From NCBI GenBank assembly GCA_003158745.1, contig PMLC01000046.1, positions 28,943 to 71,464 on the forward strand: DNA of 42,522 bases, in the 5' to 3' direction. The translations under genes and the position numbers were made by a program. The number at the start of each line of letters is the position of its first letter. Position 1 is the stretch's first letter. The notes beneath the pieces were generated by a model. It searched no databases. It was not told the DNA's origin and saw only the letters and a program-made list of their open reading frames with translations. Source of the DNA: Acidobacteriota bacterium (GTDB taxonomy: Bacteria > Acidobacteriota > Thermoanaerobaculia > Thermoanaerobaculales > Thermoanaerobaculaceae). Of the stretch, positions 6,098 to 42,522 are shown piece after piece.

Positions 6098-6940
6098 TCA
6101 GTTGTCCGGTGTTCCGAAGACGATGCGCGGGAAGTACGTGCGCAGCGCCTCCATGATCTTGACGACGGCAGCGTTGGATCCCGACTCGCGGTGGCTGTCC
6201 CGGAACCGGTAGCGGTCGCCCTTGACGATCTGGAAGTTGATCTGGTAGCAGAAGTTCTCAGGGGTTCGCGCCTCGCACGTAAACCACACCTTCTCGAGGC
6301 CCGTTGTCTGGAACGTGAAGTTCTCCTTGGGGTCGCGATCATCCATCCAGGTGAAAACGTCGCCATGCATGACCAGGCGACCCTTACGGTCCTTATTCCA
6401 GAAACCCGTTTTCACCAGAATCAGGTCGTCGAAGACCAACTCAGCCGGAGCGGCGCCCGGCGCAATCGTGGCCCCGGCGCTGGTCGCCATCAAGGCCGCG
6501 ATCGTCGACTCCTGGGCGCCGTTCTGTTTGAGGTAGAGAAGATCATTGACCGAGAGGTTGTACGCCTGGCCTGACTGCCTAACCTGCTCGGCGATGATGG
6601 AGCCGGACATCCCTGACTTGATCAGGCGCACGAAATCGACAAGGCGGGCATCATCGGGCTGGAGCGGCACGGGCGCTGGCGTGGGTGCCGGGATACGCGC
6701 CCAGATCGCGGTGATGACAGTCTCCGGCACGCCCGCATTACGCAGCGTGACGATGTCCCCGGCCGTCATTCCTATGGTATTGACCGGGCTGTTGACCATG
6801 GCGATGATGCCGTCGGCCGAGGCGCCGGACTGCTGGGCCGCCACGATCGAGTTGACCGTCAACTCTTCCGCGCCCGCCGCTACAGCCGAGAGCGCCAGCA
6901 GAGCTACACCGAGAAAAGCCCCGACGACTGCGTGTTTCAT
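6098..6940 (-). CDS. Exported protein with two helical repeats and a C-terminal beta domain (unknown function)
   Basis: A 280-residue protein. The signal peptide is MKHAVVGAFLGVALLALSAV followed by an AGA cleavage region. Two similar segments of about 50 residues follow, roughly 27-82 and 100-153. Each has the pattern [IV]-x2-[hydrophobic]-x-x-SG-x5-I, then a Ser/Thr-Asp segment, then LxxxGxxExxIxAxW/M. A C-terminal domain (about 170-280) looks like a small mixed beta fold (LVMHGDVFTWMDD, EKVWFTCEA). The family is not recognised; periplasmic location is inferred from the signal peptide. The ATG at 6940 follows an AGGAAAGGCAGG stretch. It is the first gene after regulatory element a, and a decayed relative lies at 18485-18695. 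Confidence 0.82.
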   Translation of the reverse strand: MKHAVVGAFLGVALLALSAVAAGAEELTVNSIVAAQQSGASADGIIAMVNSPVNTIGMTAGDIVTLRNAGVPETVITAIWARIPAPTPAPVPLQPDDARLVDFVRLIKSGMSGSIIAEQVRQSGQAYNLSVNDLLYLKQNGAQESTIAALMATSAGATIAPGAAPAELVFDDLILVKTGFWNKDRKGRLVMHGDVFTWMDDRDPKENFTFQTTGLEKVWFTCEARTPENFCYQINFQIVKGDRYRFRDSHRESGSNAAVVKIMEALRTYFPRIVFGTPDN

Positions 6941-6971
6941 GGAACACCTGCCTTTCCTTAGACGCATCTCA

Positions 6972-7047
6972 AATCTAGTTCCCTGGCGCCCCGACGTGTA
7001 GCGCACTTTCTACCCGGGAGCAACGCCGCAACTCAGGTAGGAACTAC
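6972..7047 (-). promoter_or_regulatory. Cassette element a: two dyad boxes plus -10, upstream of the exported two-repeat gene
   Basis: On the minus strand the order is box A GTAGTTCCTAC (7047-7037), 23 nt, box B GTAGAAAGTGC (7013-7003), 25 nt, and TAGATT (6977-6972). Transcription should begin near 6965, leaving about 25 nt of leader before the ATG at 6940. The leader (TTTGAGATGCGTC, then AGGAAAGG) is shared with elements c, d and e. No -35 hexamer is visible at the expected place, and box B overlaps it, so an activator is expected to be required. The binding protein is not identified. Confidence 0.8.
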
Positions 7048-10264: not shown

Positions 10265-10834
10265 TCAGAGCGTAACGCGGACTCCGGCACTGACGGCGTT
10301 GATGTCTACGTCGCGGAGCTTGTAGCGTTCCCACTCACCCAACACCGAGAACTTGCCGAAGTTGAACCGCAAACCCGCGCCATAGAACGGGTCGTGCCCA
10401 TGGTCGGTTCCGGCCACGAAATGCGGGTCGGTCACGGTGCCGGTGAGCGTCACATCGGTGCTCCAATACATGTAGCCGGCTTTCGCGTAGAGCGTGACCA
10501 GATCGCCGACCGGGATCCGGCCCGTGAGCGCAGCCGTCCCGGTTTTCGGGTCGTACCCCACTCGCGTGCTGCCTGCCGCCGAAGTAATCACGCCGTCGAA
10601 CTTGCCGAAGTTGACCCAGGCGGCCTCGACTCCGAGGAAGACAGGAAACTCATAGCCTAAGAAGAACTTGTACGAGTTCCGCGTTTGGTCGATGACCGTC
10701 GTGTTGATCGCCGCGTGACTCGCGGCGCCGCCAAGGTAGAAACCCTGCGCGGCCGCCGGTCGGCTCGCCCCAAGGCCTGCAACCAGGACACTCGCGCCAA
10801 GGAGAATCATCGGCGCCATCAGTTTCATCTTCAA
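10265..10834 (-). CDS. OmpA-like eight-stranded outer-membrane barrel protein
   Basis: A 189-residue protein: signal peptide (MAPMILLGASVLVAGLG, cleavage after AAA) and alternating strands typical of the small OmpA-type or opacity-protein barrels. Examples are SYKFFLGYEFPVFLGVEAAWVNFG, LVTLYAKAGYMYW, DPFYGAGLRFNFGKFSVLGEWERYK, and a terminal strand ending VTL. There is no peptidoglycan-binding OmpA C-domain. The start chosen is TTG at 10834, six bases after GGAGG. The duplicated copy of this leader at 42149 has GTG at the same position, which supports it. First gene after element b, heading the envelope cluster down to 7148. Confidence 0.87.
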   Translation of the reverse strand: MKMKLMAPMILLGASVLVAGLGASRPAAAQGFYLGGAASHAAINTTVIDQTRNSYKFFLGYEFPVFLGVEAAWVNFGKFDGVITSAAGSTRVGYDPKTGTAALTGRIPVGDLVTLYAKAGYMYWSTDVTLTGTVTDPHFVAGTDHGHDPFYGAGLRFNFGKFSVLGEWERYKLRDVDINAVSAGVRVTL

Positions 10835-10945
10835 CGTTGACCTCCATGCCCCGAGACGTGCGCATTCGGTGATGGGCCCGCACTTCCAACGAAGAAACCA
10901 GGTCCCACGATTCTCGTCGCACGCCTCCTTTCTCGGTCACCCACG

Positions 10946-11022
10946 AATCTAGTCCCTGTGGTGCTGTGCGGGATAGCGCATTTTGTACCCGGGATCGGAG
11001 CCGCAGATTAGGTAGGAACTAC
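10946..11022 (-). promoter_or_regulatory. Cassette element b: promoter of the OmpA-like operon
   Basis: Minus strand: box A GTAGTTCCTAC (11022-11012), 23 nt, box B GTACAAAATGC (10988-10978), 26 nt, and TAGATT (10951-10946). About 110 nt of 5' UTR lead to the TTG start at 10834. From box A through the UTR and into the signal-peptide codons (11022 down to about 10753) this DNA is closely similar to 41963-42232, so promoter, UTR and leader were duplicated as one piece. Confidence 0.8.
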
Positions 11023-13911: not shown

Positions 13912-13947
13912 CGAGGTTCCTGGAAGGCGAGTGATAATAGCGACACG

Positions 13948-26035: not shown

Positions 26036-26166
26036 GTTGGCTCTCCCCCTTCCCTGTTATCGATCGGGCGAAACCCCCGAGTCCACACCTAACCGTTTCG
26101 GGGCCGTTCCCACGCGAATATTGGTTAATTTTAACATGCTGCCCTGGCCCGAAATTCGAGTCAATC

Positions 26167-26211
26167 GTAGTCTCTACCTGGTGGCAACGCTAGAATGCAG
26201 GTAGAAACTAC
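26167..26211 (-). promoter_or_regulatory. Cassette element g (diverged): two perfect dyads upstream of the DUF3494 gene
   Basis: Minus strand: box A GTAGTTTCTAC (26211-26201), 23 nt, and box B GTAGAGACTAC (26177-26167). Both are perfect GTAG-N3-CTAC dyads. No TAGATT follows at 25 nt. A TAAAAT lies at 26133-26128, 33 nt from box B, inside an AT-rich stretch, so the promoter spacing differs from the other copies. Confidence 0.65.
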
Positions 26212-27201: not shown

Positions 27202-27277
27202 GTAGTTCCTACCTAACTCTCGGCTTGACTCCCGGGTAGAAAGTACGCATCCCGATAGAGGGCCAGAACAGTAGATT
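27202..27277 (+). promoter_or_regulatory. Cassette element c: promoter before the methyltransferase operon
   Basis: Box A GTAGTTCCTAC (27202-27212), 23 nt, box B GTAGAAAGTAC (27236-27246), 25 nt, TAGATT (27272-27277). The leader TTCGAGATGTGCTCGGGAAAGG matches those of elements a and e and runs into an ATGAAACGCGT start identical to the first 11 bases of the BON gene. Confidence 0.82.
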
Positions 27278-27307
27278 CGAGATGTGCTCGGGAAAGGAAG
27301 GCATTCC

Positions 27308-27382
27308 ATGAAACGCGTCGCCCTCGTTCAGGGTGGTACTCTGCTCGGTGTCCCGGACAAGCTGCGACAGCCGCGAAGGTGA
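27308..27382 (+). CDS. Orphan 24-residue leader peptide (duplicated signal-peptide start)
   Basis: The frame starts at ATGAAACGCGT, directly after the conserved cassette leader and its GGAAAGGAAGG ribosome region. It encodes MKRVALVQGGTLLGV then a basic tail, and stops three bases before the methyltransferase ATG. The first 48 bases align without gaps to the BON lipoprotein start (41502 downwards); by hand count 32 of 48 match, including the GGTGTC block. So it looks like the start of an exported-protein gene whose body is gone. It may now serve only to load ribosomes for the next gene, or it may be unused. Translation is inferred from position and ribosome site. Confidence 0.5.
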   Translation: MKRVALVQGGTLLGVPDKLRQPRR

Positions 27383-27385
27383 GGC

Positions 27386-28204
27386 ATGACTGACTTGCGC
27401 GTGCGAGTTGAGGAACACAACCATCAGGACATGCCTGCGGGTGCTGTGCGCCGGGGACGACCAGCATCACATGGGTGCGGAGTTCTCCGGCGGGTGATGC
27501 GCCTGGCGTCAACGATAATCGCGATGGCTGGGTGGCGACTCGAGCACCTCAACGCGGTGTGGGTGACCGGGAGCGTCGCCTCCGTCTTCCTCGCCCACGT
27601 TCTCATCAACCGCGCCGACTGGCGACTTACTCTGCCCTACTTCCTCTTCACGCTCGTCTTCTACTACGGTGGAAACGCGGCGATTCTCAGATCAGACCTT
27701 CCCGCCCGCGCCATCGCTCGCCTCGGCGAGGAGCGCGCTTTCCGGGCGTACGAAACCCTGGCCGGACTCATGTTCCTCAACCAGGGACTGGGGGTCGGCT
27801 GCATGGCGGCGCTGCACGCTCCGAGGTTGGAGCAGGCGGTGCCCGCGCCTCTCGTTCTCGCCGCAGGTGTGGCGCTGTTCGTGGTGGGCCTGGTTGTCAA
27901 GCTGTGGGCCACGCTCACTGTGGGCGTGGACGTGTACTACTTCCGCGACATGTTCCTCGGGCGCCCGGTGGCCCCCATCTGTGACGGCGGACCCTATCGC
28001 TTCCTGCGCAACCCCATGTATTCGGTGGGGCAGCTCCAGGGATACGGTTATGCGCTCCTCTACGGCTCTCTCCCCGGTTTCGTCGCCGCTGGTGCGGGCC
28101 ACCTGCTCATCTACGCGTTCTACGTCATGGCCGAACGCCCGTTTGTGCGGAGAGCGTACATTGCGCCTTGCCCGGACCAGACGATCACATCGGCACCGCA
28201 ATGA
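27386..28204 (+). CDS. PEMT/ICMT-like integral membrane methyltransferase
   Basis: A 272-residue membrane protein with about five helices. The C-terminal catalytic region is typical of the phospholipid/isoprenylcysteine methyltransferase superfamily: GGPYRFLRNPMYSVGQLQGYG (about 209-229, the RHPxY-type SAM site read as RNPMY) and a later AERPFVRRAY with the conserved Glu. It may methylate a lipid amine or a thiol at the membrane. The ATG at 27386 follows AGGTGAGG and the leader stop; the first 37 residues look non-conserved, so Met38 (27497) or Met47 (27524) could be the real start. It overlaps the next gene by four bases (ATGA). Confidence 0.8.
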   Translation: MTDLRVRVEEHNHQDMPAGAVRRGRPASHGCGVLRRVMRLASTIIAMAGWRLEHLNAVWVTGSVASVFLAHVLINRADWRLTLPYFLFTLVFYYGGNAAILRSDLPARAIARLGEERAFRAYETLAGLMFLNQGLGVGCMAALHAPRLEQAVPAPLVLAAGVALFVVGLVVKLWATLTVGVDVYYFRDMFLGRPVAPICDGGPYRFLRNPMYSVGQLQGYGYALLYGSLPGFVAAGAGHLLIYAFYVMAERPFVRRAYIAPCPDQTITSAPQ

Positions 28205-30183
28205 AATCTCAGCCATCGCGAAGCGTGTCGTCGTCAAGAACGCTGGGCCGAACGGCCACGCGCAGAGGCTGCACCGCTTGGGCCACCGCACTCCTTCCGA
28301 CTCTTGCCATGACACCCGCGCTCGCACAGGCCCCGGCGTTGCCGGCCGCTCCGCCTGCGGTGGTGACAGTCTCACCCTCGGAGCCGCCCCTGGAATCGGG
28401 CTCACAGCCGGTGCTCGACCAGATCGCCGCGTGCGTCGACAGCGGCTCGTTCAATCTCGAGATCGAGCTGCGAACCGGGCGCGTGCAGGTAGCTGATGGG
28501 TGGAAGTTGAATGTCGTCGGAACACCGACGGCAGCCCTCGTTGCCACGGCAGTCGGAGGGCACGTCAGCCGCCTCGACCTTGCGGTCAACGGTGGCGCGC
28601 TACTCCTCGAGGGGGATCACCTGCGGCCTCAGGTTCTCATCAAGAGCCTTCGCTTCGAGGAGGGAAAGGGAATCACCAAGGCCAGTTACCGGGGCCGCGG
28701 CATCTGGAGACCCATCGTTTGGCTGTTTCGGGGTCTGGCCCGATCAGCCTTGCGCAAGCTCGAGTTCCGAACCGACATCTTGTCAGTCTTGCACGGCGAG
28801 GTCCTGGACGCCAAGGGAGCTGCGGCGCCCGCGGCGACCGACAAGGCCCCACCTCCTCTGACTTCTCCGGCTCCTTCGCCGCCTTCCGGCCCCGCCTTCA
28901 TCGACCTTGTCAGAGAGGTGCGTATCCACGACTCGGAGTTCGTGGCCTATGGCGGCCGCCCCTTGAACCTTGGCAAGATGCTCGAGCTCCACACCGCATC
29001 GCAGCCGAGGGAAGGCACGCCTGTGCGCGTCGCGATCGCTGCGGGCCTCTTGCGGCCGGCTTGGGAAGGCCGCCTGGAGCAGTTCGAGGTTGCGGGCCGG
29101 GTCGATGGAGAGATCGAGAATGGCGCCATTGCCTTCGTCGGGAGCCGTTGCGCTTTTTCGCACGGCGAGATGACGGAAGGCGCGTTCCGGGTCGCATCAC
29201 GCACCCACGGCACCCTCGATGTGACGATCTCTGCCGCCGCCCTCGCCGTCGATCTGACGGCAGGCGAGCTCCGCCTACCGGGCGGCCCGAGAGTCAACGT
29301 CGAGGCGCCCTCGCATTTCCTCGTCCGGAATTTGCGGCTGCAGCCGGAGGGGCAGTACTCCGGGATCGTCGACGCAGAGCTGTTCGGCAAAGCGGGCGGG
29401 ATCGAACGGGGCGGGGTCGTCGTCTCGTTGAGCACCGTGAAGTTACGAACGAGCGGGACAACGGTTGTCGACGGGCGGGCGACGGGCGATGTGGAGCTGG
29501 AATCCGAGTACCGCATGGCCTACCCGCTCGTGGTGCGCTATCCCGTCTCGCAAGTCGGCGAACGGTGTGTCCAGCTCCTCTTTCAGGGGTCTTTCGCGAC
29601 CAAGCTTCACCTCCAGGACGCTGGCAGCGGCGAGGAAGGCACCGCCACGGGAGAGTACCGGTTCACGGTGCCGTGGCCCCCCGTCGAGCAGGCAGCCTTC
29701 GAGGTCCTGCGCGCCAAGTGGAGTCAGGACATCCCGCCCGTCATCCGTAAGGTGGGCGTCGTCATCGAGCCGCGGCGCTTCGGTCCGTGCGGCGGAAACT
29801 GCTTCCTGGTCAGTCTTGACGTGACGGTGGAGAAGAAGGAGGGCAAAGGTCGTCTCTTCCGTCAGATCTGCGACACGCAAGGGAAAGCGGACCTCGTTGT
29901 CGATGCGGCGAGCCGCAGGTTCCTCCTCCGCAACGTGAGGATCGAACCGCGATGCCGGGGCATCGTCGGTTGGGTCGTGAACTTCATCGGGCCGCTTCTG
30001 ACGAAGACCTACACGGACGTGACGTTGTTCCAGATGCCCGAGGACCTTCCATTCACGATCGAGTCGGTCGGCAGTGGTGCTGACTGGCTCGCCATCGCGG
30101 GCAAGGTCGCCTGGGCGGCGAAGGCGCCCGAAGTGCCGTCAAAGCCGTTGCCTCAGTGCGTACCGGTTTCTCCGACCCCGTAG
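28201..30183 (+). CDS. Large exported protein of unknown function
   Basis: About 660 residues, starting at the ATG that overlaps the methyltransferase stop. A long basic n-region precedes a hydrophobic stretch and an ALAQAPA cleavage site, so export to the periplasm is likely. The rest is beta-rich with repeated amphipathic strands (LDLAVNGGALLLEGDHLRPQVLI; LDVTISAAALAVDLTAGELRLPGG), a Pro/Ala linker (about 215-240), and near the end LLRNVRIEPRCRGIVGWVVNFIGPLL. The alternation recalls AsmA-like or lipid-transfer proteins, but I do not recognise a family. There is no ribosome site of its own, so translation probably depends on coupling to the membrane methyltransferase, which suggests a shared lipid or envelope substrate. 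Confidence 0.75.
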   Translation: MKSQPSRSVSSSRTLGRTATRRGCTAWATALLPTLAMTPALAQAPALPAAPPAVVTVSPSEPPLESGSQPVLDQIAACVDSGSFNLEIELRTGRVQVADGWKLNVVGTPTAALVATAVGGHVSRLDLAVNGGALLLEGDHLRPQVLIKSLRFEEGKGITKASYRGRGIWRPIVWLFRGLARSALRKLEFRTDILSVLHGEVLDAKGAAAPAATDKAPPPLTSPAPSPPSGPAFIDLVREVRIHDSEFVAYGGRPLNLGKMLELHTASQPREGTPVRVAIAAGLLRPAWEGRLEQFEVAGRVDGEIENGAIAFVGSRCAFSHGEMTEGAFRVASRTHGTLDVTISAAALAVDLTAGELRLPGGPRVNVEAPSHFLVRNLRLQPEGQYSGIVDAELFGKAGGIERGGVVVSLSTVKLRTSGTTVVDGRATGDVELESEYRMAYPLVVRYPVSQVGERCVQLLFQGSFATKLHLQDAGSGEEGTATGEYRFTVPWPPVEQAAFEVLRAKWSQDIPPVIRKVGVVIEPRRFGPCGGNCFLVSLDVTVEKKEGKGRLFRQICDTQGKADLVVDAASRRFLLRNVRIEPRCRGIVGWVVNFIGPLLTKTYTDVTLFQMPEDLPFTIESVGSGADWLAIAGKVAWAAKAPEVPSKPLPQCVPVSPTP

Positions 30184-30207
30184 GATGAAACTGGTCGCAG
30201 AGCATGG

Positions 30208-30228
30208 GCCGCCGCGGAGGTCGGCGGC
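30208..30228 (+). terminator. GC hairpin after the exported-protein gene
   Basis: A perfect 7-bp stem (GCCGCCG / CGGCGGC) with a 7-nt loop lies 25 bases after the stop of the exported-protein gene. No T-run follows. It may reduce read-through from the methyltransferase operon into the sigma gene. Confidence 0.35.
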
Positions 30229-30309
30229 GGATACTCTGAGACGAACATCTCACCGGTTTCCATGACGCAGGTCGCCGCCGTGTCTGCCGAGTGACGTCAG
30301 GTCGAGTGC

Positions 30310-30385
30310 GTATTTTTCACTCAGGGGACCGGTTCTGGCCCGGGTAGTAAGTGCGCTTGTCGATGCAGTTTGAGCGAACTACGGT
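30310..30385 (+). promoter_or_regulatory. Cassette element h (degenerate box A): promoter of the ECF sigma gene
   Basis: Box B GTAGTAAGTGC is at 30344-30354, with TACGGT exactly 25 nt downstream (30380-30385). At exactly the box A position, 23 nt upstream, is GTATTTTTCAC (30310-30320), which keeps 8 of 11 bases of GTAGTTTCTAC. Transcription should start near 30392, about 20 nt before the GTG start of the sigma factor. Confidence 0.68.
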
Positions 30386-30413
30386 GCGTTAGCTTGACAG
30401 TCTGGAGGCTGAC

Positions 30414-31082
30414 GTGAGCGAGCAAGGTGTCTGGAACTTCGATCTCGGAGAACTACCCTACCAAGCGCAGCTGCAGAAGACGGCACTCCGCCTTGCCCGC
30501 AGCGCGGATGGCGCAGAGGATCTGCTTCAGGACACCTACCTCAGAGCCTTCAGCCACTATGGGACCTTTCGCCCCGGCACCAACCTCAGGGCGTGGCTGT
30601 TTCGGATTCTCAAAAACACGTTCATCAACGAGTATCGGCGGCGCCAGAAGGCGCCGGCCCTGGTGGCCTTCGAGGACATCGAGGAGACTCTGGAGTCGGC
30701 GCTTGCGCCATGCCATGGATCGGTGACCCGCACTCCCGAGGACGAGGTCGTCGAAGCCTCGCTCGATTGCGAGGTGCAGCGGGCGTTGGCGGGACTCCCC
30801 CCCGCCTTCAGAGTCGTGGTCCTCCTCGCCGACATCGAGGGCCACGCCTACAGAGAGATCGCCACGATCCTCTCAATTCCGGTCGGGACCGTCATGTCGC
30901 GCCTCTATCGCGGACGCCGTCTTCTCGAACGGGCGCTGCTTTCCTTCGGTGTGCGCTACCACTACCTGATTCGCAAACCGCGCAGGCTGCGCTCGAGGGG
31001 CCTCGATATCGAGCGACTCTTCGGTGTCGCTGCCGCACCGGGCGGACATGGGAAGAACATCGGCCGGGTAGTTCCTACCTAG
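30414..31082 (+). CDS. ECF-type RNA polymerase sigma factor
   Basis: A 222-residue group 4 sigma factor. Region 2 (about 12-80) has AEDLLQDTYLRAFSHYGTF and GTNLRAWLFRILKNTFINEYRRR, close to the RpoE/SigR style. Region 4 (about 123-172) has LPPAFRVVVLLADIEGHAYREIA and PVGTVMSRLYRGRRLLERAL. A 45-residue basic tail follows, longer than usual. The start is GTG at 30414, five bases after GGAGG. No anti-sigma gene lies next to it, unlike most ECF loci. Its last codons (GRVVPT) are written by box A of element d, so the coding end and the next promoter are interlocked. Its promoter carries element h. Confidence 0.92.
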   Translation: MSEQGVWNFDLGELPYQAQLQKTALRLARSADGAEDLLQDTYLRAFSHYGTFRPGTNLRAWLFRILKNTFINEYRRRQKAPALVAFEDIEETLESALAPCHGSVTRTPEDEVVEASLDCEVQRALAGLPPAFRVVVLLADIEGHAYREIATILSIPVGTVMSRLYRGRRLLERALLSFGVRYHYLIRKPRRLRSRGLDIERLFGVAAAPGGHGKNIGRVVPT

Positions 31083-31143
31083 TCTGCGGCTTTGCTCCCG
31101 GGTAGAAAGTGCGCTTCACGGCGGCGGGCCGGAAGGCTACGTT
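31068..31143 (+). promoter_or_regulatory. Cassette element d: promoter before the coiled-coil protein and glucan synthase genes
   Basis: Box A GTAGTTCCTAC (31068-31078) lies inside the last codons of the sigma gene. Then 23 nt, box B GTAGAAAGTGC (31102-31112), 25 nt and TACGTT (31138-31143). The leader TTTGAGACGCGGTCCGGAAAGG matches elements a, c and e, and continues into a leader frame at 31174. Confidence 0.82.
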
Positions 31144-31173
31144 TGAGACGCGGTCCGGAAAGGGCGGTTCCCC

Positions 31174-31278
31174 TTGACACGTGCAGTCGTCGCAGCTGGA
31201 GATTTCCCGGTCGGTGTCGGGCCACGCCCCGACCGCGGATCGCGTTGGGAACCGGGCGAGGTGCCGCGGTGGACGTGA
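31174..31278 (+). CDS. Orphan 34-residue leader frame (duplicated signal-peptide start, TTG)
   Basis: TTG at 31174 stands exactly where the ATG of the other cassette copies stands. The 34-codon frame begins LTRAVVAAGDFPVGVG. Its first 48 bases match the BON lipoprotein start at 33 of 48 positions by hand count, including CGGTCGGTGTCGGG. The stop (31276-31278) overlaps a GTG at 31275 (GTGA) that is in frame with the next gene. As at 27308, the body of the exported gene is missing and the leader now ends at the start of an unrelated gene. Whether it is translated is not known. Confidence 0.42.
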   Translation: MTRAVVAAGDFPVGVGPRPDRGSRWEPGEVPRWT

Positions 31279-31859
31279 ACGATCGCATCCGCTGGGAAGT
31301 GCAATGGCACCCCGCCAACGGCGCCAGGATCCGTCGCCTGAGGATCACCTCGCGCGGCGTCCGGCGCCTGATCTTCGCTCTCGGCATCGTCGTTTGGGTC
31401 GTCCTCGCCGGCGGTTTGCTGGCCGGTTTCGAGGGGCTTCTGGCCCGCTCCGCAATCGACTCGGCAAGGCGCCAGAACACGGCCCTGATGGTGCAGCAGG
31501 AAACCTTGCGCGAGCAGGCATTCGACCTGGCCGTGCGGTTGTCCGAGGAAATCGAGCGGGGACGCGGGACGGCCCGATCGGCCGGCGTTCCGGGCCATGC
31601 CTGGGAAGGTCGCCGCCCCCGCCCGCCGGCGAGAGACGCAGGGAGCGATACCATTCTTGCCTGGCTTTCCGAGCAGGGTGCACGGTTGGAAGCGGTCGGG
31701 AACGAACTGGCGGCGGCCCGGGCCGAGGTGGGATCGAAGCAAGCGTCCGTCCCGGTCCCTGCAGCCATAGGGATCGTGCCCGCGGGCAACGCGGCGATGC
31801 TCCAGGTGGCGGAGTTGGGGTCGGGCAAGCGACAGGAAGCGGCGCCGGCGAAGCGCTGA
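31269..31859 (+). CDS. Membrane-anchored coiled-coil protein, like an M23 peptidase N-terminus without the peptidase
   Basis: A 196-residue protein. A short basic cytoplasmic start (RIRWEVQWHPANGARIRRLRI) is followed by one membrane helix (LIFALGIVVWVVLAGGLLAGF), a coiled coil (about 60-105), a Pro/Arg-rich linker, and a second short coiled coil (AWLSEQGARLEAVGNELAAARAEV). This layout is that of the N-terminal part of membrane-anchored M23 (LytM-type) peptidases, but the HxxxD/HxH peptidase domain is absent. It may be a truncated gene or an adaptor. The start is GTG 31269 (GAGG upstream) or GTG 31275, overlapping the leader stop. It sits 51 bases before the glucan synthase start and is probably in its operon. 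Confidence 0.65.
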   Translation: MDVNDRIRWEVQWHPANGARIRRLRITSRGVRRLIFALGIVVWVVLAGGLLAGFEGLLARSAIDSARRQNTALMVQQETLREQAFDLAVRLSEEIERGRGTARSAGVPGHAWEGRRPRPPARDAGSDTILAWLSEQGARLEAVGNELAAARAEVGSKQASVPVPAAIGIVPAGNAAMLQVAELGSGKRQEAAPAKR

Positions 31860-31868
31860 CGACTCCAT

Positions 31869-31883
31869 AGGAGGTGACCACTG
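31869..31883 (+). promoter_or_regulatory. Strong ribosome site facing an in-frame CTG codon of the glucan synthase
   Basis: AGGAGGTGA is a near-perfect anti-SD match. Six bases after GGAGG is CTG at 31881, in frame with the glucan synthase and giving ten extra residues ([10 protein letters not shown]). The ATG at 31911 has no ribosome site of its own. Initiation at CTG is therefore a real possibility. Confidence 0.5.
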
Positions 31884-31910
31884 TTCGGACGGCGCCGGCC
31901 CGAAACGGCT

Positions 31911-34900
31911 ATGCCTCTCAGGGGCGAGATCTTGAGCCCCGAAGGCCTCGAGGAGCGAGCAAAGACGCTCGCCGCCATCTTCACTCTGAAACCTGCCTCG
32001 CATGCGGGCGGGCACGATGTGTTGCCACGGCTGGAAGGAAACATCCGCGCCCTGGGCGCGGGGTACCGCTACCTCGCTGACGACGCCCGCCGCGGCGTTG
32101 CCGTTCCTCCGGCCGCCGAGTGGCTCCTCGACAACTTCCATCTCGTCGAGTCGGAGGCGCGGGCCGTGCGGCACGACCTCCCGGTCCGCTACTACCGCAA
32201 GCTGCCGAAACTCGCGGCACGCGAGTTCTCGGGCAGGGCCCGCATCCATGCGATGGCGATTGAGCTTATCCGGCACGGCGACGGACGGCTCGACGCGGAG
32301 CGGCTCACGCGGTTCGTCCTCGCATTCCAGACCGTGGCGCCATTGACGATAGGCGAGCTCTGGGCGTGGCCCAGCATGCTCAAGCTCGCGCTCCTCGAGA
32401 ACCTGAGGCTCCTGACAGACGGAATCCTCGCAGGGCGGGCGGCGCGCCTGGAGGCGGACGGTGTTCTCGCGCGGCTGGAAAGCGGTGCTACTGCCGGCTC
32501 TCTGCCCGACCCCCTCCCGAGCGCCTTCGTGGCGCAGCTCCGGCAGCGGATGCGCGAGTACGATCCGCGTGTGTCGCCCCTCGCCGCAGCGGTCGAGCAG
32601 GCACTTGCCGCGCGAGGCACGACGCCCGAGGATGCAGTCCGCTCCGAGAACCAGCGCCAGGCCACCGATCAGGTCTCCACCGGCAATACGGTGACGAGCC
32701 TTAGGTTCTGTGCGACGCTCGACTGGAGCCGCTTTGTTGAGCTGGTCAGCCCGGTGGAGGAGATCCTGCGGCGGGACCCGGCCGGGGTTTACCCACGCAT
32801 GGACTTCGCAAGCCGTGACCGCTACCGGCACGCCGTCGAGGATCTCGCCGAGCCGACCGGCGAGGCGCAGGTGCGCATCGCGCTGCGCACCGTCGAGAGC
32901 GCCCGCCAGGGCGCAGATCGGAAGGGGGTCGACGACAGGGCGGCGCACGTCGGCTATCACCTGATCGGCCCGGGCCGGCGCGGCCTCGAGATCGACGTGG
33001 CGTACCGCCCGCGCCTCGCTCAGCGACTCCGCCGTTGGGCCTTCGCCCATGCCACTGCGGCCTACCTCGGCGGCATCGGCCTCCTGACCGGCTTCGGCGT
33101 CTTCAGCGCATACGAATACGCGGACGCCGCGGGCGCCGCCGTGATGGCGACGGCCGCGGCCCTGCTCGCGCTGCTCCCCGCGAGCGAGCTCGCCGTGCTC
33201 ATCATCCAGCGCATCGTGGCCGCGCTCGTGCCGCCGCGCCGACTCGCCCGCTTCGATTTCAGCGAAGGGATCCCCGAGAGCGCCCGCACGATGGTGGTCG
33301 TGCCCACGCTCCTCGGCAACGTGGCGGATGTCGAGCCGCTCCTGGCGCACCTCGAGGTGCAGGCGCTCGGCAACCTCGACCCGCGGATCCACTTCGCGGT
33401 CCTCTCCGACTTCAAGGACGCGCGGACACCTTCGATTTCCGGTGACGACGAGATCCTGGCCGCAGCGGTGGCCGGCATCGAGGCGCTCAACCGCCGGCAC
33501 GTGCACGACGGGAACGACCGTTTCTACCTGTTCCACCGTGACCGGAAGTGGAACCCCAAAGAGGGCGTCTTCATGGGCTGGGAGCGCAAGCGTGGCAAGA
33601 TCGTGGAGCTCAACCGCCTGTTGCGTTCCTCGGCCGACACCGGTTTCTCCGTCAAGATCGGGGACCTTTCGATCCTCCCCTCGGTGCGCTACGTCCTGAC
33701 CCTGGACGCCGACACGCGGCTCCCGAGGGGCGCCGCAAGGACACTGATCGGTATCCTCTCGCACCCGCTCAACAGGCCCGTGGTCGACGCCGCCCTGGGC
33801 AGGGTCACGGGGGGCTACGGCATTCTGCAGCCGCGCGTGAGCGTCAACCTCGCGAGCGCCGCCGGGTCGCTCTTCGCACGGCTGTACGCCGGGCACACCG
33901 GCGTCGATCCCTATACGACGGCTGTCTCGGACACCTACCAGGACCTGTTCGGCGAAGGAATCTTCACCGGCAAGGGGCTATACGACGTCGATGCCTTCCG
34001 GGCGACCGTCGGCTGGCGCGTCCCCGAGAACGCGCTGCTGTCGCACGATCTCTTTGAGGGGCTGCACGCGCGCACCGCGCTCGTCTCCGACGTGGAGGTG
34101 GTGGACGACTACCCCGCCAACGTCCTCGCGCACGCGCGGCGGCAGAACCGCTGGGTGCGCGGCGACTGGCAGATCCTCGCCTGGCTCTTCCCACTGGTCC
34201 CGACGCCGCAGGGTTTCGTGAAGAACCGCCTCCCGCTCATCAGTCAATGGAAGATCCTCGACAACCTCCGACGCAGCCTCGTGGCGCCCGCTCTCCTCGC
34301 CTTCTTCGGAGCCGCGTGGACTCTCCTGCCGGGGAGCCCTCTCGCCTGGACCTTGGGCGGCCTCGCGGTCGTCGCTTTCCCGTTTCTCGCTTCCCTTTTC
34401 CACCTCCTGGAGCCGCGCCCCGCGCACGAACCAGCCCGCGTCCACCTTCGAGGCCTCGCGGAAGATCTGAGCACCGCCTTCTCTCAGGCTCTCCTGACGC
34501 TGGTCTTCCTCCCATTCCACGCCTGGGAGAGGGCGCATGCGATCGCCGTGACGCTCGTCCGGCTCGTCATCACGAAACGCCGCCTCCTTGACTGGGAGAC
34601 GTCGGCGGCGCAGGCCGCGCGAGCCGCCGGCATGTTGCGGGAAGGGATCCGTTCCTTTTTCGTCGAGATGGCCGCGAGCCCGATCGCGGCGCTGGGGCTT
34701 CTCGCCCTCACCGGCGCCGTTCGTCCCGGCGCTCTTGGTCTGGCACTGCCGTTCCTCGTCCTGTGGGCAGCGGCGCCCGCCTGCGCGTACTGGCTCAGCC
34801 GGCCCACGGTGCCCCGCCGGCGGGAGCTGTCGCCGGAGGACCGTGAGTTCCTCAAGGATGTGGCGCGGAAGACGTGGAGCTATTTCGAAACCCTGGCCGG

Positions 34901-37900
34901 CCCCGAGGATCATTGGCTCCCTCCCGACAACTTCCAGGAAGACCGAGAGCCCACGGTCGCCCACCGCACCTCGCCGACCAACATCGGCATGGGCCTCCTC
35001 TCGACGCTCGCGGCGCACGATCTGGGCCTCCTTCCGGCGGATGCGATGGTCGAGAGGATCGACGGGACGCTGACCACGGTCGAAGGTCTCGAGCGCCACG
35101 AGGGGCACCTCCTGAACTGGTACGACACGCAGAACCTCTCGCCGCTCCTCCCGCGCTACGTGTCCACCGTGGACAGCGGCAACCTCGCCGGGGCGCTTCT
35201 CGCCGTGGCGGAAGGGTGCCGGCGCCTGGGCGCTTCGCGGGGAGACCTGGCATCACGCCTGTCCGACGTTGCCCGTCGCGCGACGGCCCTGGCGGACGGG
35301 ATGAACTTCTCCTTCCTCTACGACCGCCAGCGTCAGCTCTTCTCGATCGGCTATCGCATGGCCGACGCCGGCGGGCCGGGGAGAGCGGACGACTCCTACT
35401 ACGACCTCCTGGCCGGGGAGTCGCGCCTGGCGAGCTTCTTCGCGATCGCCAAGGGCGACGTCCCGCAAAGCCACTGGTTCCACCTGGGGCGGCTCGTCGT
35501 CAGCGTGGAAGGCGTCCCGACCCTCGTGTCCTGGGGCGCGACGATGTTCGAGTACCTGATGCCGCTTCTCCTGATGAGAACGTATCCGGGGACGCTCCTC
35601 GACCTGAGCTGCCGCATGGTCGTCAGGAAGCAGATCCGGTACGGTCGCGAGCGCCACGTTCCGTGGGGAATTTCCGAGTCCGCCTACGATCTGACCGACC
35701 GGCTCGGCAACTATCAGTACAAGGAGTTCGGCGTCCCGGGCCTCGGTTTGAGGCGAGGGCTGGCCGACGAGCTCGTCGTTGCTCCCTACGCGACCGCGCT
35801 GGCCGCTCTCCTCGAGCCGGCCAGGGCCGCACAAAACCTGCGACGGCTCACGGCCGCGGGAGCCGAGGGGGCGCTCGGATACTACGACGCCGTCGACTAC
35901 ACGACGCGGAAGCCGGACGAGACCGGCGACTCTCCGGCCGCGCGCCCCGACGCCGGCGTCATCGTGAAGACCCACATGGCACACCATCAGGGGATGACGC
36001 TCGTCGCCATCGCCAACGTCCTGCTCGACGACGTGATGGTCGACCGGTTCCATGCTGACCGGAGAATTCAGGCGACCGAGCTTCTCCTGCAGGAGCGCAT
36101 CCCACGCGAGGCGCCCGTCATCGAGCCGCGCCCGGCCGAGGAGGCCCGAGCCGAACCACCATCGTTCGCGCGCGCCCCGCGCCGCCTCCGCTCGCCGCAC
36201 ACGCCGTACCCACGCGCGCAGATCCTCTCGAACGGCAGCTACGTCGCGATCGTCACGAACGGGGGCGGCGGGACCAGCTTCTGCCGCGGCCGTGCCGTGA
36301 CGCGGTGGCGGGAGGACCGTACCCGCGATCCGGGAAGCCAGTTCGTCTATCTGCGCGATGTGCACACGGGGGCTATCTGGTCCGCGGCCTACCAGCCAAC
36401 AGGCAAAGAACCCGAAAGCTACCTCGTGGAGTTCCTCGCCGAGAAGGCAGCCTTCGAACGCCTCGACGACGGCATCGCAACGCGCCTCGAGGTAGCCGTC
36501 TCACCGGGGGACGACGCCGAGGTCCGGCGTGTCTCGCTGACGAACCAGAGCGACCGTCCCCGCGAGATCGAGCTGACGAGCTACGTCGAAGTGGGTCTGG
36601 GGTCCGTCGCCGACGACGTCGCCAACCCCGCGTTCGGGAAGCTCTTCCTCGAGACGGAGTGGATCGCCGAGAATACGGCTCTCCTGGCGCGACGTCGGCC
36701 CCGCGGCCCGCACGATCCGGCGCTCGTCATATTTCACGTCCTCTCCATCCACGGACCGACGCAGGCGCAAGTCGAGTGGGAGACGGACCGGATGCGATTC
36801 CTGGGGCGCGGGCGCGGCCCCGAAAACCCAAAGGCAATGGACGGGCGCGCTCTCTCGGGGACGACCGGCGCCGTGCTCGACCCGATCCTGAGCCTCCGGA
36901 CCAGGCTGCGGCTCGCGCCCGGGGGGTTTGCCCGCGTCTCGTTCACGACCGGCGTCGCCGGCGACGAGCCGGCCGCGCGCGAGTGCGCGCAGAAGTATCA
37001 CGACCACGGTGTCGCCGCTCGCGCTTTCGCCCTCGCCTACACGCAGGCGCAGATGACACAGCGGCATCTCGGCATCTCCGTCGAACAGGCCCAGCTCACC
37101 GAACGGCTCGGGTCCCGCGTCTTCTTCTCCGACGCATCCCTTCGGGCCGACGGGGAGACCCTGGCGAAGAACACGCTCGGGCAGGAGAGTCTCTGGAAGT
37201 TCGGCATCTCGGGCGACCTGCCAATCGTTCTCGTCCGCCTGACAGAGCCGGACGACGTCCAGCTCGTCCGGCAGGTCCTGACCGCCCACGAGCACTGGCG
37301 CCTGAAGGGGCTGAAGGCCGACGCTGTGATCCTGAACGAGCACCCGGCGAGCTACCGCGAAGAGACGAACGAACAGCTCACCCAGCTCATCGACGGCAGC
37401 CCGTGGAGCGCCTGGAAAGGGAAGCCCGGCGGCGTGTTTCTTCTCCAGGCCGATTTGCTCTCGGAGGCCGAGAAGGTCCTTCTGAACGTTGTCGCCCAGG
37501 CGGTCGTCTCCGGCGACCGCGGCACCCTGGAACAGCAGCTCGACCGCCCGGAGGCGGAGCCTCCACTCCCGTTGGGCCACGTGCCGGTCGACGAGGACCC
37601 GGATCCGGGCCAGCCGGAAGTGGAGTTGGAGCCAACGCCGCTTCTTCTCGGGAACGGCCTCGGCGGCTTCACGCGTGACGGCCGCGAATACGTCGTCGTC
37701 CTCGATGGCGAACGGGAGACACCGCTTCCCTGGATCAACGTTCTCGCCAACCCGCGCTTCGGGAGCATCGTCACCACCTCCGGGGCGGCCCATACCTGGT
37801 CCGAGGACAGTCGCGAGAACCGGCTCACCCCGTTCGCCAACGACCCGGTCACCAACCCGACCGCCGAGGCGATCTTCGTGCGCGACGAGGAGAACGGCTC

Positions 37901-40133
37901 CCTGTGGGGCGCCACGCCGACATCCATCCGGCGCACGCCGCGATCTCCGCGCTGGGTGGTGCGCCACGCGGCGGGCGTGACCCGCTACTCCCGCGCCGCG
38001 CACGGAATCGCGCAGGAGCTGGCGGTCTTCGTGGCGCGGGAAGATCCCGTGAAACTGTCTCTCCTGACGTTGACGAACCGCTCCGACCGGCCGCGGCGCA
38101 TCACCCTCTTCTCGTACAACGAGTGGTTGCTCGGTCCGCCAATCGCGAGCGGCCCGCGGTTCGTCGCGACCGAACGCGACGCCGAGACTGGAGCGGTCCT
38201 GGCGCGCGACCTGTATAGCTCGGAGCGGGAGCGCGTCGCGTTCGCCGCCGCGAGCGAGCCTCTCCTCTCGGCCACCGGGGACCGCCTCGAGTTCTTCGGC
38301 CGCAACGGCTCGCTCTCTCGCGCGTCCGCGCTCGGCCGGCCGCTCCTGTCCAACCGCTTCGGCGCCGGCCTCGACCCGTGCGCAGCGTTGCAGACAGTGG
38401 TGGAGCTCGAGCCCGGCGCGACGCGGCGCATCGTGTTCCTCCTCGGCCAGGGGCGTGACGCGGCAGAGGCCCGCGCCCTCCTGCGGCGGTTCGCGGGCAA
38501 GGACGGCGTGGCAACCGCCGAGGCCGAACTCGTCGCAGTGGAGGCGTTCTGGGAGGACACGCTGGGCGCCGTGCGCGTCGCCACCCCCGACGACTCCTTC
38601 GACCTCCTGGTCAACAGGTGGCTCCTCTACCAGGACCTGGTGTGCCGCGTCTGGGCGCGCTCCGCCTACTCCCAGTCGAGCGGTGCATACGGCTTCCGCG
38701 ACCAGCTCCAGGACGTGCTGGCGCTCATGTTGACGCGGCCGGACCTCACCCGCGAGCACCTCCTGCGAGCGGCCGCGCGCCAGTTCGTCGAGGGGGACGT
38801 GCAGCACTGGTGGAGCGCCCCGGGCGGCCAGGGCATCCGCACGCGGTGCTCGGACGACCTTCTCTGGCTCCCCTACGCGGCCGCCGAGTACGTCAAGGCA
38901 ACCGGAGACCGCTCCGTCCTCGACGAGCGGGCGCCCTTCCTCGAGGCGCCTCCCGTTCCGCCCGGAGAGCCCGAGGCGTACGGGATCCCGGCCGTCTCCC
39001 GCGCGACGGGCACTCTGTTCGAGCACTGCATCAGGGCGGTGGATCGGGCGATCACCACCGGCGCGCACGGTTTGCCGCTCATCGGGAGCTGCGACTGGAA
39101 CGACGGCTTCAACCGCGTCGGCCCCGAGGGCCGCGGGGAGAGCGTCTTCGTCGGCTGGTTCCTCCACGCCGTCTTGGGAGCGATTGCCCCATTGTGCGAG
39201 GAGCGGGGTGAGGCGCCCCGAGCGGCGAGCTACCGCGCCGAACGCGAGCGTCTGGGAACCATGCTGGAGCAAAGCTGGGACGGCGAGTGGTACCGGCGCG
39301 CGTACTTCGATGACGGCACCCCGCTCGGGTCGTCCCAAAACGACGAGGGGAAGATCGACTCGGTGGCGCAGACGTGGGCCGTTCTCTCGGGCGCCGCGCC
39401 GGCAAACCGCGCCGAGCGCGCCATGAGCGCCGTGCGCACCCACCTGGTCCGGCGCGGTTCGGGCGTCGTCCTGCTCCTCTCGCCGCCGTTCGATCACACG
39501 GCTCTCGACCCGGGATACATCAAGGGCTACATCCCGGGGATTCGCGAGAACGGAGGGCAGTACACGCACGCCGGGGCGTGGGTCGCCCTCGCGCTCGCGC
39601 GTCTCGGGAGCGGCGACGAGGCGGTGGAGCTCTTCCACATGCTCAACCCCATCAACCACTCGCGGACGACGAGCGAGGTCGAGCAGTACATGACCGAGCC
39701 CTATGCGGTCGCCGGGGATGTCTACGACCACCCGGCGCACCGGGGACGCGGCGGCTGGACCTGGTACACCGGGTCGGCCGGCTGGATGTACCGGGTTGCC
39801 GTAGAAGGGATCCTCGGACTCCAGCGCCGCGGCGCATGCTTCACGTTGAACCCGTGCATCCCGTCGTCGTGGCCGACCTACTCGATCGATTGGAGATTCG
39901 GAAAGACGGACTACACGATCGTCGTGGAGAACCCGGAGCGGCGGTGCCGGGGCGTGGCGAGCGTGGAGCTCGACGGATCGCCCGCCGACCCGGCCGCGAT
40001 TCCGCTCGCGGATGACGGGCGTGCACATCGGGTTCGAGTCGTGCTCGGCGCGGGTCGTGGCGCGCCACCGGGCTCCGCAAAGCCCACAACAACCCAGGCG
40101 AGCGCCAAGACGCAAGACGCTGTGAGCCGCTGA
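31911..40133 (+). CDS. ndvB: Cyclic beta-1,2-glucan synthase (NdvB/ChvB type)
   Basis: A 2740-residue inner-membrane enzyme of the usual length for the family. Order: soluble N-terminus; helices at about 380-435; the GT84 glycosyltransferase (about 460-780) with [10 protein letters not shown] and [11 protein letters not shown] (QxxRW); more helices at about 790-830 and 915-965; the glycoamylase-like domain (about 1000-1400; [34 protein letters not shown]); and a tandem carbohydrate-binding and GH94 phosphorylase part (about 1450-2690). The latter has [23 protein letters not shown] and CDWNDGFN (2394-2401), holding the presumed catalytic Asp. It builds and cyclises periplasmic osmoregulated glucan. 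Element d and the coiled-coil gene lie upstream. The start may be CTG at 31881. Confidence 0.93.
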
Positions 40134-40352
40134 TGGCGCACACCCCGCGGAGATTGGCAATCAAAGTGAGCCCTCTTGCGGGCAAGCGGATCCCATTTGA
40201 ATCTAGCCGTGAGTTCGCAATGCGCATGCCCTATTCAACCAGGACGTCACTTTTGTATCAACCTATTTATGAGGTGCTACACTAGCTGTTCAGCTGTCGT
40301 GTTTCCCTTCTTGCGGCCCTTGGGACAACTCCTCGAGGCGCCATGGGGGCAG

Positions 40353-40727
40353 TCAGGCGTACTCGCCGACGTTGCCTCGCGCGTACCGTCCCCTGGACGC
40401 CTCCGGCGGCTGGCGGCCATCCCGCGAGCGCCTGCTGGCAAAGAACCAAGTGGGTCGCCCGTGGAACTCATTGGACACCGATTTGGGGAGAAAGACCTGA
40501 AGGAGGTGCCCGATTGATGAAATGGCCACGAAGGGGGAGGCTGGGGGCCCGGAGGGCGGCCGTTGGGTGACGAGAGCGACCCCGGCAAAGGCCACGTACC
40601 GTCCAGGCTCCTTGTCGAACGTCGTCTTGCAGGTAGCGCAGCAGAACACATGGATCTGCCCCGCATGTATGCTTTTGTATGGGGCCTTGTTGTCGAGGGT
40701 TATGCCACAAACAGGATCCTTGGCCAT
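40353..40727 (-). CDS. YHS-domain metal-binding protein with an unusual tail
   Basis: A 124-residue frame. The first 47 residues are a YHS domain: KDPVCGITLDN, then FCCATCKTTFDKEPGRYV, with the Cys residues that bind heavy metals in such domains. The remaining 75 residues are low-complexity, basic and unlike any family I know, and may be read-through of decayed sequence, since stand-alone YHS proteins often end near residue 50-60. AAGGAGA lies eight bases before the ATG. YHS domains occur in copper and other metal-handling proteins. No metal transporter sits beside it, and element e lies about 800 bases upstream, beyond the BON gene. Confidence 0.72.
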   Translation of the reverse strand: MAKDPVCGITLDNKAPYKSIHAGQIHVFCCATCKTTFDKEPGRYVAFAGVALVTQRPPSGPPASPFVAISSIGHLLQVFLPKSVSNEFHGRPTWFFASRRSRDGRQPPEASRGRYARGNVGEYA

Positions 40728-40953
40728 CTCGAGCGTCTCCTTCCCACCTGCGACAGGTGGCTTCAGCCACCACCGCGGAGCGACCGGGTCGGCGGGGAGG
40801 CGCCCCGCTGACCTGCGGGCTCCTCACATCGTCAGCTTCGTCTCCTCTGCCTTGAATGCTGGAGCATCGCCCGTCTTCATCATCGGGCGCTCCGTAGCAC
40901 GAGAGGAATGACGAAGATCGTCCAGAGCATCACAGTCCTCCAGTCCGCCGGGC

Positions 40954-41502
40954 CTAGTACTTCATGGTGCCGACGAGGAGCTCGTTGTGAACGTCCTTGA
41001 CGCCCTTGGTGTCGCGCGCGACCGTCTCCGCCATGCTCTTGATCTTCTCAGAGCTGACGCGGCCGATCAGCGTCACGACCCCCTGCGAGGAACCCACGTC
41101 AATCTCCCCGGTCTTGATCTCGGAGATTGCGATGAGCTTCGCCTTGACCTTCGAGCTGATCATCACGTCATCGATCCAACTGCCGACCGTCCTCTCCCCA
41201 ACCGTGAGGTTGTTCATGACACCTTCCACACCCTCCGTGCGCCACGCGACGCGCGCGGCCTCCTGGCGGGCCTGCTCCGTGTCCACCACGCCGGTCAGGT
41301 ACACGACGCCCTCACGGGTTTCGACGTCCACCTCGCGCGCCTTCACGTTGTCGTTGGCCTCCAGCGACGCCTGGATCACCGATGTGATCCCCGAGTCCGC
41401 ATGCCGCGTTGCCTTGGGCACCATCGGGGAGCCGCACCCGGCGAGCGCCAGCAGCCCGACACCGACCAGGGAGCCTGCCACCACGGCGAATACGCGTTTC
41501 AT
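40954..41502 (-). CDS. BON-domain lipoprotein (OsmY-like, two BON domains)
   Basis: A 182-residue lipoprotein: signal peptide with lipobox LAGC (Cys23). Two BON domains follow, about 38-105 (TSVIQASLEANDNVKAREVDVETREGVVYLTGVV) and 112-178 (SKVKAKLIAISEIKTGEIDVGSSQGVVTLIGRV). BON proteins of the OsmY/DolP type bind phospholipid membranes and help outer-membrane integrity and osmotic stress survival. The ATG at 41502 follows GAGAAAGGACGG in the cassette leader. It is directly under element e. The signal-peptide codons are the best intact match for the orphan leaders at 27308 and 31174. Confidence 0.92.
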   Translation of the reverse strand: MKRVFAVVAGSLVGVGLLALAGCGSPMVPKATRHADSGITSVIQASLEANDNVKAREVDVETREGVVYLTGVVDTEQARQEAARVAWRTEGVEGVMNNLTVGERTVGSWIDDVMISSKVKAKLIAISEIKTGEIDVGSSQGVVTLIGRVSSEKIKSMAETVARDTKGVKDVHNELLVGTMKY

Positions 41503-41532
41503 GAGGGACCGTCCTTTCTCGAACGTGTCTCA

Positions 41533-41608
41533 AACCTAGTCCTCCGATCCCTCGCCGGGAAGAGCGCTTACTACCCAGGAGCAGGGCCGCGAGGTGGGTA
41601 GAAACCAC
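41533..41608 (-). promoter_or_regulatory. Cassette element e: promoter of the BON lipoprotein gene
   Basis: Minus strand: box A GTGGTTTCTAC (41608-41598), 23 nt, box B GTAGTAAGCGC (41574-41564), 25 nt, TAGGTT (41538-41533). The leader TTTGAGACACGTTCGAGAAAGG leads directly to the ATG at 41502. It is a full member of the cassette family whose signal-peptide gene is intact. Confidence 0.8.
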
Positions 41609-41962: not shown

Positions 41963-42037
41963 GTAGTTTCTACCTAATCCGCGGCTCTCATCTCGGGGGA
42001 AAATGCGCTATCCCGCACAGCACCAAGAGACTAGATT
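41963..42037 (+). promoter_or_regulatory. Cassette element f: duplicated copy of the OmpA-like gene's promoter, before the PRC-barrel gene
   Basis: Box A GTAGTTTCTAC (41963-41973), 22 nt, box B GGGGAAAATGC (41996-42006, worn), 25 nt, TAGATT (42032-42037). From box A to about 42232 the sequence follows element b, its UTR and the OmpA-like signal peptide closely (shared runs include ATGCGCTATCCCGCACAGCA). Box B is degraded, so response to the activator may be weaker. Confidence 0.78.
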
Positions 42038-42148
42038 CGTAGGCGGGTGAGAAGGAAGGCACGCCACGAGAGTCGTGGGACTTGGTTCCTTCGTTGGGAC
42101 TGTCGGCTCATTACCGAAGGCGCACATCTCGGGGCACGGAGGTGAGCG

Positions 42149-42310
42149 GTGAAGACGAACCTGATGGCACCGGTGAGCCTCCTTGGCGCGATTGCTCTGG
42201 TTGCAGGGCCTGGGTCAAGCCGACCGGCGGCAGGGCGGGCGCCGGAGGCCAGAGCTGCGGCCGGGGACAGCACCCTTCGACAAAGGAGGATGCGATGCTC
42301 CGGAGCATGA
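42149..42310 (+). pseudogene. Decapitated paralogue leader of the OmpA-like barrel gene
   Basis: GTG at 42149, six bases after GGAGG, opens a 53-codon frame. Its first 28 residues match the OmpA-like signal peptide (MAPxxLLGAxxLVAGxGxSRPAA). After 42232 the match ends and the frame runs into unrelated basic sequence, stopping at 42308-42310, inside the PRC-barrel gene that begins at 42295. The barrel-coding body has been lost. The remaining leader may still be translated and coupled to the PRC-barrel start. Confidence 0.7.
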
Positions 42311-42522
42311 AGGATCTTCACGGGTTCACGATCGGCGCCACCGATGGGGACATCGGGACCGCCCAGGAGTGCTACTTCGACGATGTGAGCTTCACGGTGC
42401 GCTACGTCGTGGTCGATACGGGAACGAAGCGGATGACCCACGAGGGGTGGCTTGTGGAACGCAAGGTGCTCCTCTCGCCGATCGCCGTCCGTGCGATCGA
42501 CTGGGAGGACAAGCGCATCGAG
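42295..42522 (+). CDS. PRC-barrel domain protein (partial, runs off the window)
   Basis: At least 76 residues, open at the right end. The start MLRSMKDLHGFTIGATDGDIG, followed by CYFDDVSFTVRYVVVDTG and ERKVLLSPIAV, is typical of bacterial PRC-barrel proteins that often have two such domains and accompany stress genes. AGGAGG lies five bases before the ATG at 42295. It overlaps the end of the duplicated OmpA-type leader frame, so element f is its probable promoter. Confidence 0.9.
   Translation, partial: MLRSMKDLHGFTIGATDGDIGTAQECYFDDVSFTVRYVVVDTGTKRMTHEGWLVERKVLLSPIAVRAIDWEDKRIE

Follow-up and report, generated by a model that had tools for sequence, protein, structure and literature searches.

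The window analyzed here, a 42,522-nucleotide stretch belonging to a 3.7-Mb metagenome-assembled genome (MAG) of the Acidobacteriota (Thermoanaerobaculia-type MAGs), contains several copies of one promoter ahead of different genes, which raises the question of what was copied: a binding site, or a larger unit that includes the 5′ UTR and the first codons of a gene. The preliminary description argued for the latter on the basis of four elements, all of which lie where it had placed them (c from 27202 and d from 31068 on the forward strand, e from 41608 and a from 7047 on the reverse strand; Table 1). They have in common box A (GTAGTTYCTACC), followed 33 bases later by box B (GGGTAGAAAGTGCGCT), then a TAGRTT −10, a Shine-Dalgarno-like block, and a start codon. 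The layout of the whole family is two palindromic operators, GTAGTTYCTAC, placed 33 bp apart, then a weak −35, the TAGRTT −10, a 5′ UTR of 20-odd bases with a Shine-Dalgarno sequence, and the start codon.

Table 1. Positions in the window of the promoter elements, their leader frames, and the genes that they head
Feature	Positions	Strand	Remarks
Exported 280-aa protein	6098..6940	−	Headed by a; without Pfam family
Element a	6941..7047	−	Boxes, −10, 5′ UTR; outside 27202-41608, the range of the preliminary description
OmpA-like beta-barrel protein	10265..10834	−	Presumed donor of the OMP-type cassette
Leader frame of b	10831..10917	−	28 codons; ACG here, ATG in two relatives; TGA overlaps OMP start
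Element b	10918..11022	−	OMP-type promoter and UTR
Element g	26130..26211	−	Diverged copy, two palindromic boxes; ahead of ice-binding protein gene (24668-26035)
Element c	27202..27307	+	Boxes, −10, 5′ UTR
Leader ORF of c	27308..27382	+	24 codons; stop 3 bases before methyltransferase ATG at 27386
Phospholipid methyltransferase	27386..28204	+	PF04191; headed by c in five genomes
Element h	30310..30400	+	Weak box A, box B; precedes ECF sigma gene
ECF-type sigma factor	30414..31082	+	PF04542, PF08281; position relative to d kept in relatives
Element d	31068..31173	+	Boxes, −10, 5′ UTR; UTR BON-type in this genome alone; 3′ end of sigma gene (last codons, stop) overlaps box A
Orphan leader ORF of d	31174..31278	+	TTG, 34 codons; BON-like over first 16; TGA overlaps GTG (31275) of membrane-anchor gene (GTGA)
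Membrane-anchored protein	31269..31859	+	Behind d; start 31269 or 31275
BON-domain lipoprotein	40954..41502	−	Intact; headed by e
Element e	41503..41608	−	Boxes, −10, 5′ UTR; the BON-type cassette
Element f	41963..42310	+	OMP-type promoter, UTR, leader frame, orphan OMP signal-peptide ORF (42149-42310); ahead of PRC-barrel gene
PRC-barrel protein	42295..42522	+	Captured by f; runs off window end

We searched for further copies in this genome and its relatives, all of them MAGs. A sequence model found 17 dispersed two-box promoter copies in this genome, 5, 12, 18 (palsa_272), 14, and 11 in five relatives, and zero in 34 other relatives. The family thus occurs in 5/9 genomes of the genus and in one genome of another genus, a distribution that fits vertical descent with loss as well as horizontal spread between species. 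Named Acidobacteriota MAGs with the same element are 37-71-11, palsa_272, FW104_bin.1, NC_groundwater_1577, SRVP_14, OFTM233, a Thermoanaerobaculia bin, and UBA5704. In a genome-wide search for the boxes that allowed ≤3 mismatches, 9 and 13 sites were recovered (the two-box sites numbering 13), and the reversed pattern gave 0. The boxes far exceed chance, and one promoter family marks a regulon in this genome. The genes that the copies head (BON, K, phosphoglucomutase-type, PRC, glyoxalase, OMP, and methyltransferase) are non-homologous.

With its poor −35 and boxes that end immediately upstream of it, the promoter has a layout that fits activation by a dimeric regulator sitting next to RNA polymerase; a literature search with the operator sequence found no bacterial regulator. 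The ECF sigma factor encoded ahead of d was considered as the regulon's factor and is probably not required, since its gene is deleted internally in palsa_272 and was not found in FW104_bin.1, both of which are rich in promoter copies. An ortholog is present in genome G0, 37-71-11, and NC_groundwater_1577. The palsa_272 gene (L056 6790-6981) has lost its middle, with residues ~1-29 and 185-222 left, and that genome still has 18 promoter copies. At the ice-binding protein gene, both boxes are the same 11-bp palindrome in both orientations, and the corresponding palsa_272 promoter (L125 4252-4296) has a fully symmetric double operator (GTAGTTTCTACC ... GGTAGAAACTAC). We note that the promoter also heads 27- to 30-residue hydrophobic peptides with glycine-tyrosine-arginine tails that are conserved across genomes (L050 10488-10580, L053 2429-2515; also L057, L058, and L142) and are likely overlooked small proteins.

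As to whether similarity continues past the −10 into UTR and leader, the earlier hand counts over the first 48 bases after the start, 32/48 for c-e and 33/48 for d-e, proved exact. Forty-eight signal-peptide genes predicted in this genome served as background; their mean match was ~16.5 ± 3 and the maximum 23-24, no unrelated signal-peptide gene going above 24. When the start and the next two codons were excluded, the matches were 27/39 for d-e, 23/39 for c-e, and 21/39 for c-d (background maximum, 19). The 40 bases 5′ of the start matched at 24-30/40 among c, d, and e (background maximum, 19-21) and were also above background among c, d, e, and q, a further promoter of the family. The similarity in UTR and leader therefore holds for c, d, and e and not for the leader of a, which matched c, d, and e at only 20-23/48, within the range of random signal-peptide genes; a shares only promoter and UTR with the other three, and the leaders of a and q match e at background level.

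Resemblance of this kind could reflect shared function only, with one regulator and one sigma factor imposing the boxes, the −10, and the Shine-Dalgarno sequence, and signal-peptide constraints imposing the leader, so that nothing would have been copied. The background-level leaders of a and q agree with this, as does the finding that each of the promoters a, c, d (in relatives), and q falls into a clade of its own that follows one gene through several genomes, as expected of old constrained promoters. Element c is a case in point. It had been taken for a moved BON leader behind which the exported body was lost, a reading that we abandoned: c is an old promoter of the methyltransferase gene, common to five genomes, and the five orthologous promoters form one clade (support 95/87 in the 61-copy tree described below and 99/98 in a second tree). 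Its leader matches BON genes at a mean of 19.8 of 39 in this genome and the other c copies mostly at 10-17, the BON likeness being clear only here, and an AU test on a BON-type derivation of the c leader gave p = 0.37. The c leader ORF has equal length in SRVP_14 and NC_groundwater_1577, the latter with an ACG start.

The leader matches above those of unrelated signal-peptide genes argue against shared function as the whole account, and so does the ancestry of the copies. In a tree of 61 aligned copies from several genomes (a short alignment of ~110 columns), an analysis that the preliminary description had proposed, promoters of non-BON genes nest, as it had predicted, within the BON clade (96/86), among them those of the uncharacterized K gene (37-71-11), phosphoglucomutase-type genes, and two other exported proteins, and the OMP clade (100/99) holds the promoters that head PRC-barrel and glyoxalase genes. 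The sharpest case is in 37-71-11, where the K-gene and BON promoter copies, ahead of two unrelated genes, are identical at 115/121 positions (95%). The shared unit begins 15 bases upstream of box A and ends immediately before the ATG; the 300 bases upstream are unrelated, and no similarity extends beyond the unit. These within-genome copies match at 102/106, more closely than either promoter matches its orthologs (74/106 for the K gene, 89/106 for BON). The K protein itself ends in LPKTAS, a hydrophobic stretch, and arginines (L115 ~3215-3965; L058 ~13870-14600), a tail that resembles a cell-wall sorting signal (weak Gram_pos_anchor match), though the phylum is diderm.

The OMP-type copies, which are absent from the preliminary description, as is element f, are the clearest cassette case. 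About 280 bp of the 5′ end of the OMP gene, signal peptide included, stands before PRC-barrel and glyoxalase genes, where the signal-peptide code is left as an orphan ORF of 38-53 codons that reaches the next start, and the OMP-type 5′ region can be aligned over ~290 bases in f, C106_14372, and C137. For the BON and OMP types, these observations contradict the reading of shared function alone, which still holds for c, a, and q; as an explanation of the family we regard it as improbable. Two near-duplicate exported glyoxalase-like genes lie 6 kb apart (L048 from 14373, L049 from 373), both behind OMP-type cassettes, one of which is without ~60 bases of leader. ACG stands for ATG at the leader start of b (window 10917), f (42066), a glyoxalase copy, c of NC_groundwater_1577, and a phosphoglucomutase copy (loci L058, L048, and L119 besides the window).

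The copied unit is thus more than a binding site, as had been proposed, since it includes the UTR in 37-71-11 and the 5′ gene end in the OMP type. It is not, however, the fixed unit of ~155 bases first described: most copies end at the start codon (~106-121 bp), d of this genome at ~+155, another orphan at +164, and the OMP type at ~+280. A sharp 121-bp unit with unrelated flanks and many promoter copies per genome might also be produced by a short non-autonomous element of the MITE or REPIN kind that carries a promoter and inserts by transposition. Such elements have terminal inverted repeats and fixed ends; by inspection, no shared inverted ends are visible in the 121-bp unit, and both left and right ends differ between copies. 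Moreover, the copies sit upstream of genes in the sense direction, and nothing was inserted at d, where the box overlaps the sigma stop codon and spacing is conserved. We consider transposition of this kind highly improbable.

Element d shows what happened at a single locus. The sigma gene, d, and a GH94 gene are syntenic in palsa_272, 37-71-11, and NC_groundwater_1577, and box A of d encodes the C-terminal end and stop of the sigma gene (GRVVPT*); three genomes keep 758 bases between d and the promoter of the sigma gene. Four relatives (these three and FW104_bin.1) have a different, conserved UTR and leader at d, and the leader there runs in frame into an anchor protein of 226-235 aa, forming its N-terminus. 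Compared with these orthologs, d of this genome is 74-85% identical in the boxes and only 36-62% identical over +54..+210, that is, from just past box B, a region in which d orthologs within the same genus keep 77-100% among themselves. Its leader matches BON genes at 23.5 of 39 on average, versus 11-12 for the orthologs. In the tree it lies inside the BON group with moderate support (87/84), and an AU test rejected its grouping with its orthologs (p = 0.0027). From these comparisons, d of this genome has lost the UTR and leader common to its four orthologs and has a BON-type one in their place. The earlier claim that d carries a BON-like promoter-UTR-leader is therefore upheld, for this genome only, while the claimed loss of an exported body is not, since the normal body at d is the membrane-anchor protein.

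Because box A lies in the sigma stop codon and the 758-base spacing is kept, gene conversion within the boxes is likelier than insertion at d, and the replacement probably arose in that way. The anchor body behind d in this genome (31133-31660) has 50% aa identity, versus 83% between two relatives, and is far more diverged than the neighboring sigma and GH94 genes. The imported tract may therefore exceed the cassette.

Orphan BON-type leaders were also found in NC_groundwater_1577 (two), FW104_bin.1, and, more weakly, OFTM233. Five orphan leaders have BON-type matches of 18-23.5 of 39 (background maximum, 17-19), and a search behind the orphan leaders found no trace of a BON body. Such leaders might be products of deletion fusion alone, in which tandem or dispersed BON or OMP genes lost their bodies and promoter and leader became fused to the next gene, the promoter itself remaining uncopied. 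In FW104_bin.1 the orphan leader is divergent from a PRC gene, at the position that BON occupies in other genomes; two BON lipoprotein genes of 37-71-11 have internal deletions or frame breaks after ~codon 51 (L129 from 3869; L140 from 4787); and the OMP signal peptide extends to the start of the next gene, all of which would be expected from fusion. The K-gene copy of 37-71-11, in contrast, goes precisely as far as the start codon and hardly differs from BON promoters, and d of this genome kept its position and box spacing. Fusion without copying is possible but doubtful as the sole route.

We therefore favor as the likely explanation that the promoter family grew by copying promoter-UTR cassettes, sometimes with leader codons. 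A gene for an exported protein (BON lipoprotein or OMP) would be duplicated and its body lost, leaving its cassette to head another gene; by an alternative route, ectopic gene conversion between two dispersed copies, within the shared boxes, would have the same outcome. The copied unit would usually end at the start codon, some copies would keep the donor's first codons (d of this genome, a copy ahead of the K gene, and single copies in FW104_bin.1 and NC_groundwater_1577), and the OMP type would keep the whole signal peptide. The remaining orphan leader is probably translated and may hand ribosomes to the next gene where stop overlaps start.

At c, d of this genome, b (OMP), the glyoxalase copies, and a dehydrogenase gene of OFTM233, the stop of the leader ORF and the start of the following gene are no more than a few bases apart. 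By shuffling, the chance of such a coincidence is 0.12-0.25 each and ~0.005-0.02 jointly, with starts chosen partly post hoc. Orphan leader ORFs that end on the next gene's start suggest translational coupling, which we treat as a lead, not a result. Short overlaps are a requirement of termination-reinitiation (PMC10666635), and bicistronic designs use a leader cistron (PMC5995908); the overlap of leader stop and next start seen here (ATGA/GTGA) resembles both. Unlike in bicistronic designs, the leader here is a captured or orphan 5′ gene end, and coupling is putative. More speculatively, and in our estimation rather unlikely, the cassettes could each combine promoter and UTR with a short leader cistron, its stop overlapping the captured gene's start, with the regulon spreading by means of them and gene conversion keeping them alike. 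If so, any gene behind such a cassette would be both transcribed under regulation and supplied with ribosomes, as in a naturally occurring version of the engineered bicistronic designs.

The acidobacterial case is a well-resolved variant of phenomena already on record, mobile promoters and regulatory switching. Mobile promoters, as summarized in PMC8049555, are short repeated promoter sequences (Matus-Garcia et al. 2012; van Passel et al. 2014). As with these, a near-identical short promoter occurs here in several copies per genome upstream of non-homologous genes. Unlike the promoters of that summary, the unit here includes the 5′ UTR, start context, and sometimes coding sequence, and belongs to one operator family; some copies look converted, not inserted, and no transfer was seen between distant species. 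In the regulatory switching of intergenic regions described in PMC9944727 (Oren et al. 2014), upstream regions of orthologous genes are exchanged. The gene behind d in this genome is likewise an ortholog with an alternative upstream region, in which the boxes stay homologous. It differs from that description in that the new region came from a paralogous promoter of the same regulon, the operators were kept, and UTR and N-terminus were altered. In promoter capture by duplication or deletion, reported in PMC11111574 for the citrate transporter gene in the E. coli long-term experiment, fusion to a copied promoter likewise gives a gene new expression control; here a 5′ gene fragment comes with it, and, unlike in the account of that experiment, the process is natural and repeated within one regulon across genomes.

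Regulon growth is usually inferred as the gain of binding sites by point mutation. In these uncultured Acidobacteria of soil and groundwater, copies of a single promoter have come to stand before at least a dozen unrelated genes. As a rule the short untranslated leader came along, and in some copies so did the initial codons of a lipoprotein or outer-membrane protein gene. Intermediate steps can be seen in the donor genes, in the copied units and their exact ends, in a locus with an old and a new UTR and leader, and in orphan signal-peptide ORFs as scars. As a test set, the family can be used to ask how frequently cassette copying enlarges regulons and whether the scars persist because they aid translation, and it illustrates that bacteria rewire a regulon by copying ready-made control cassettes.
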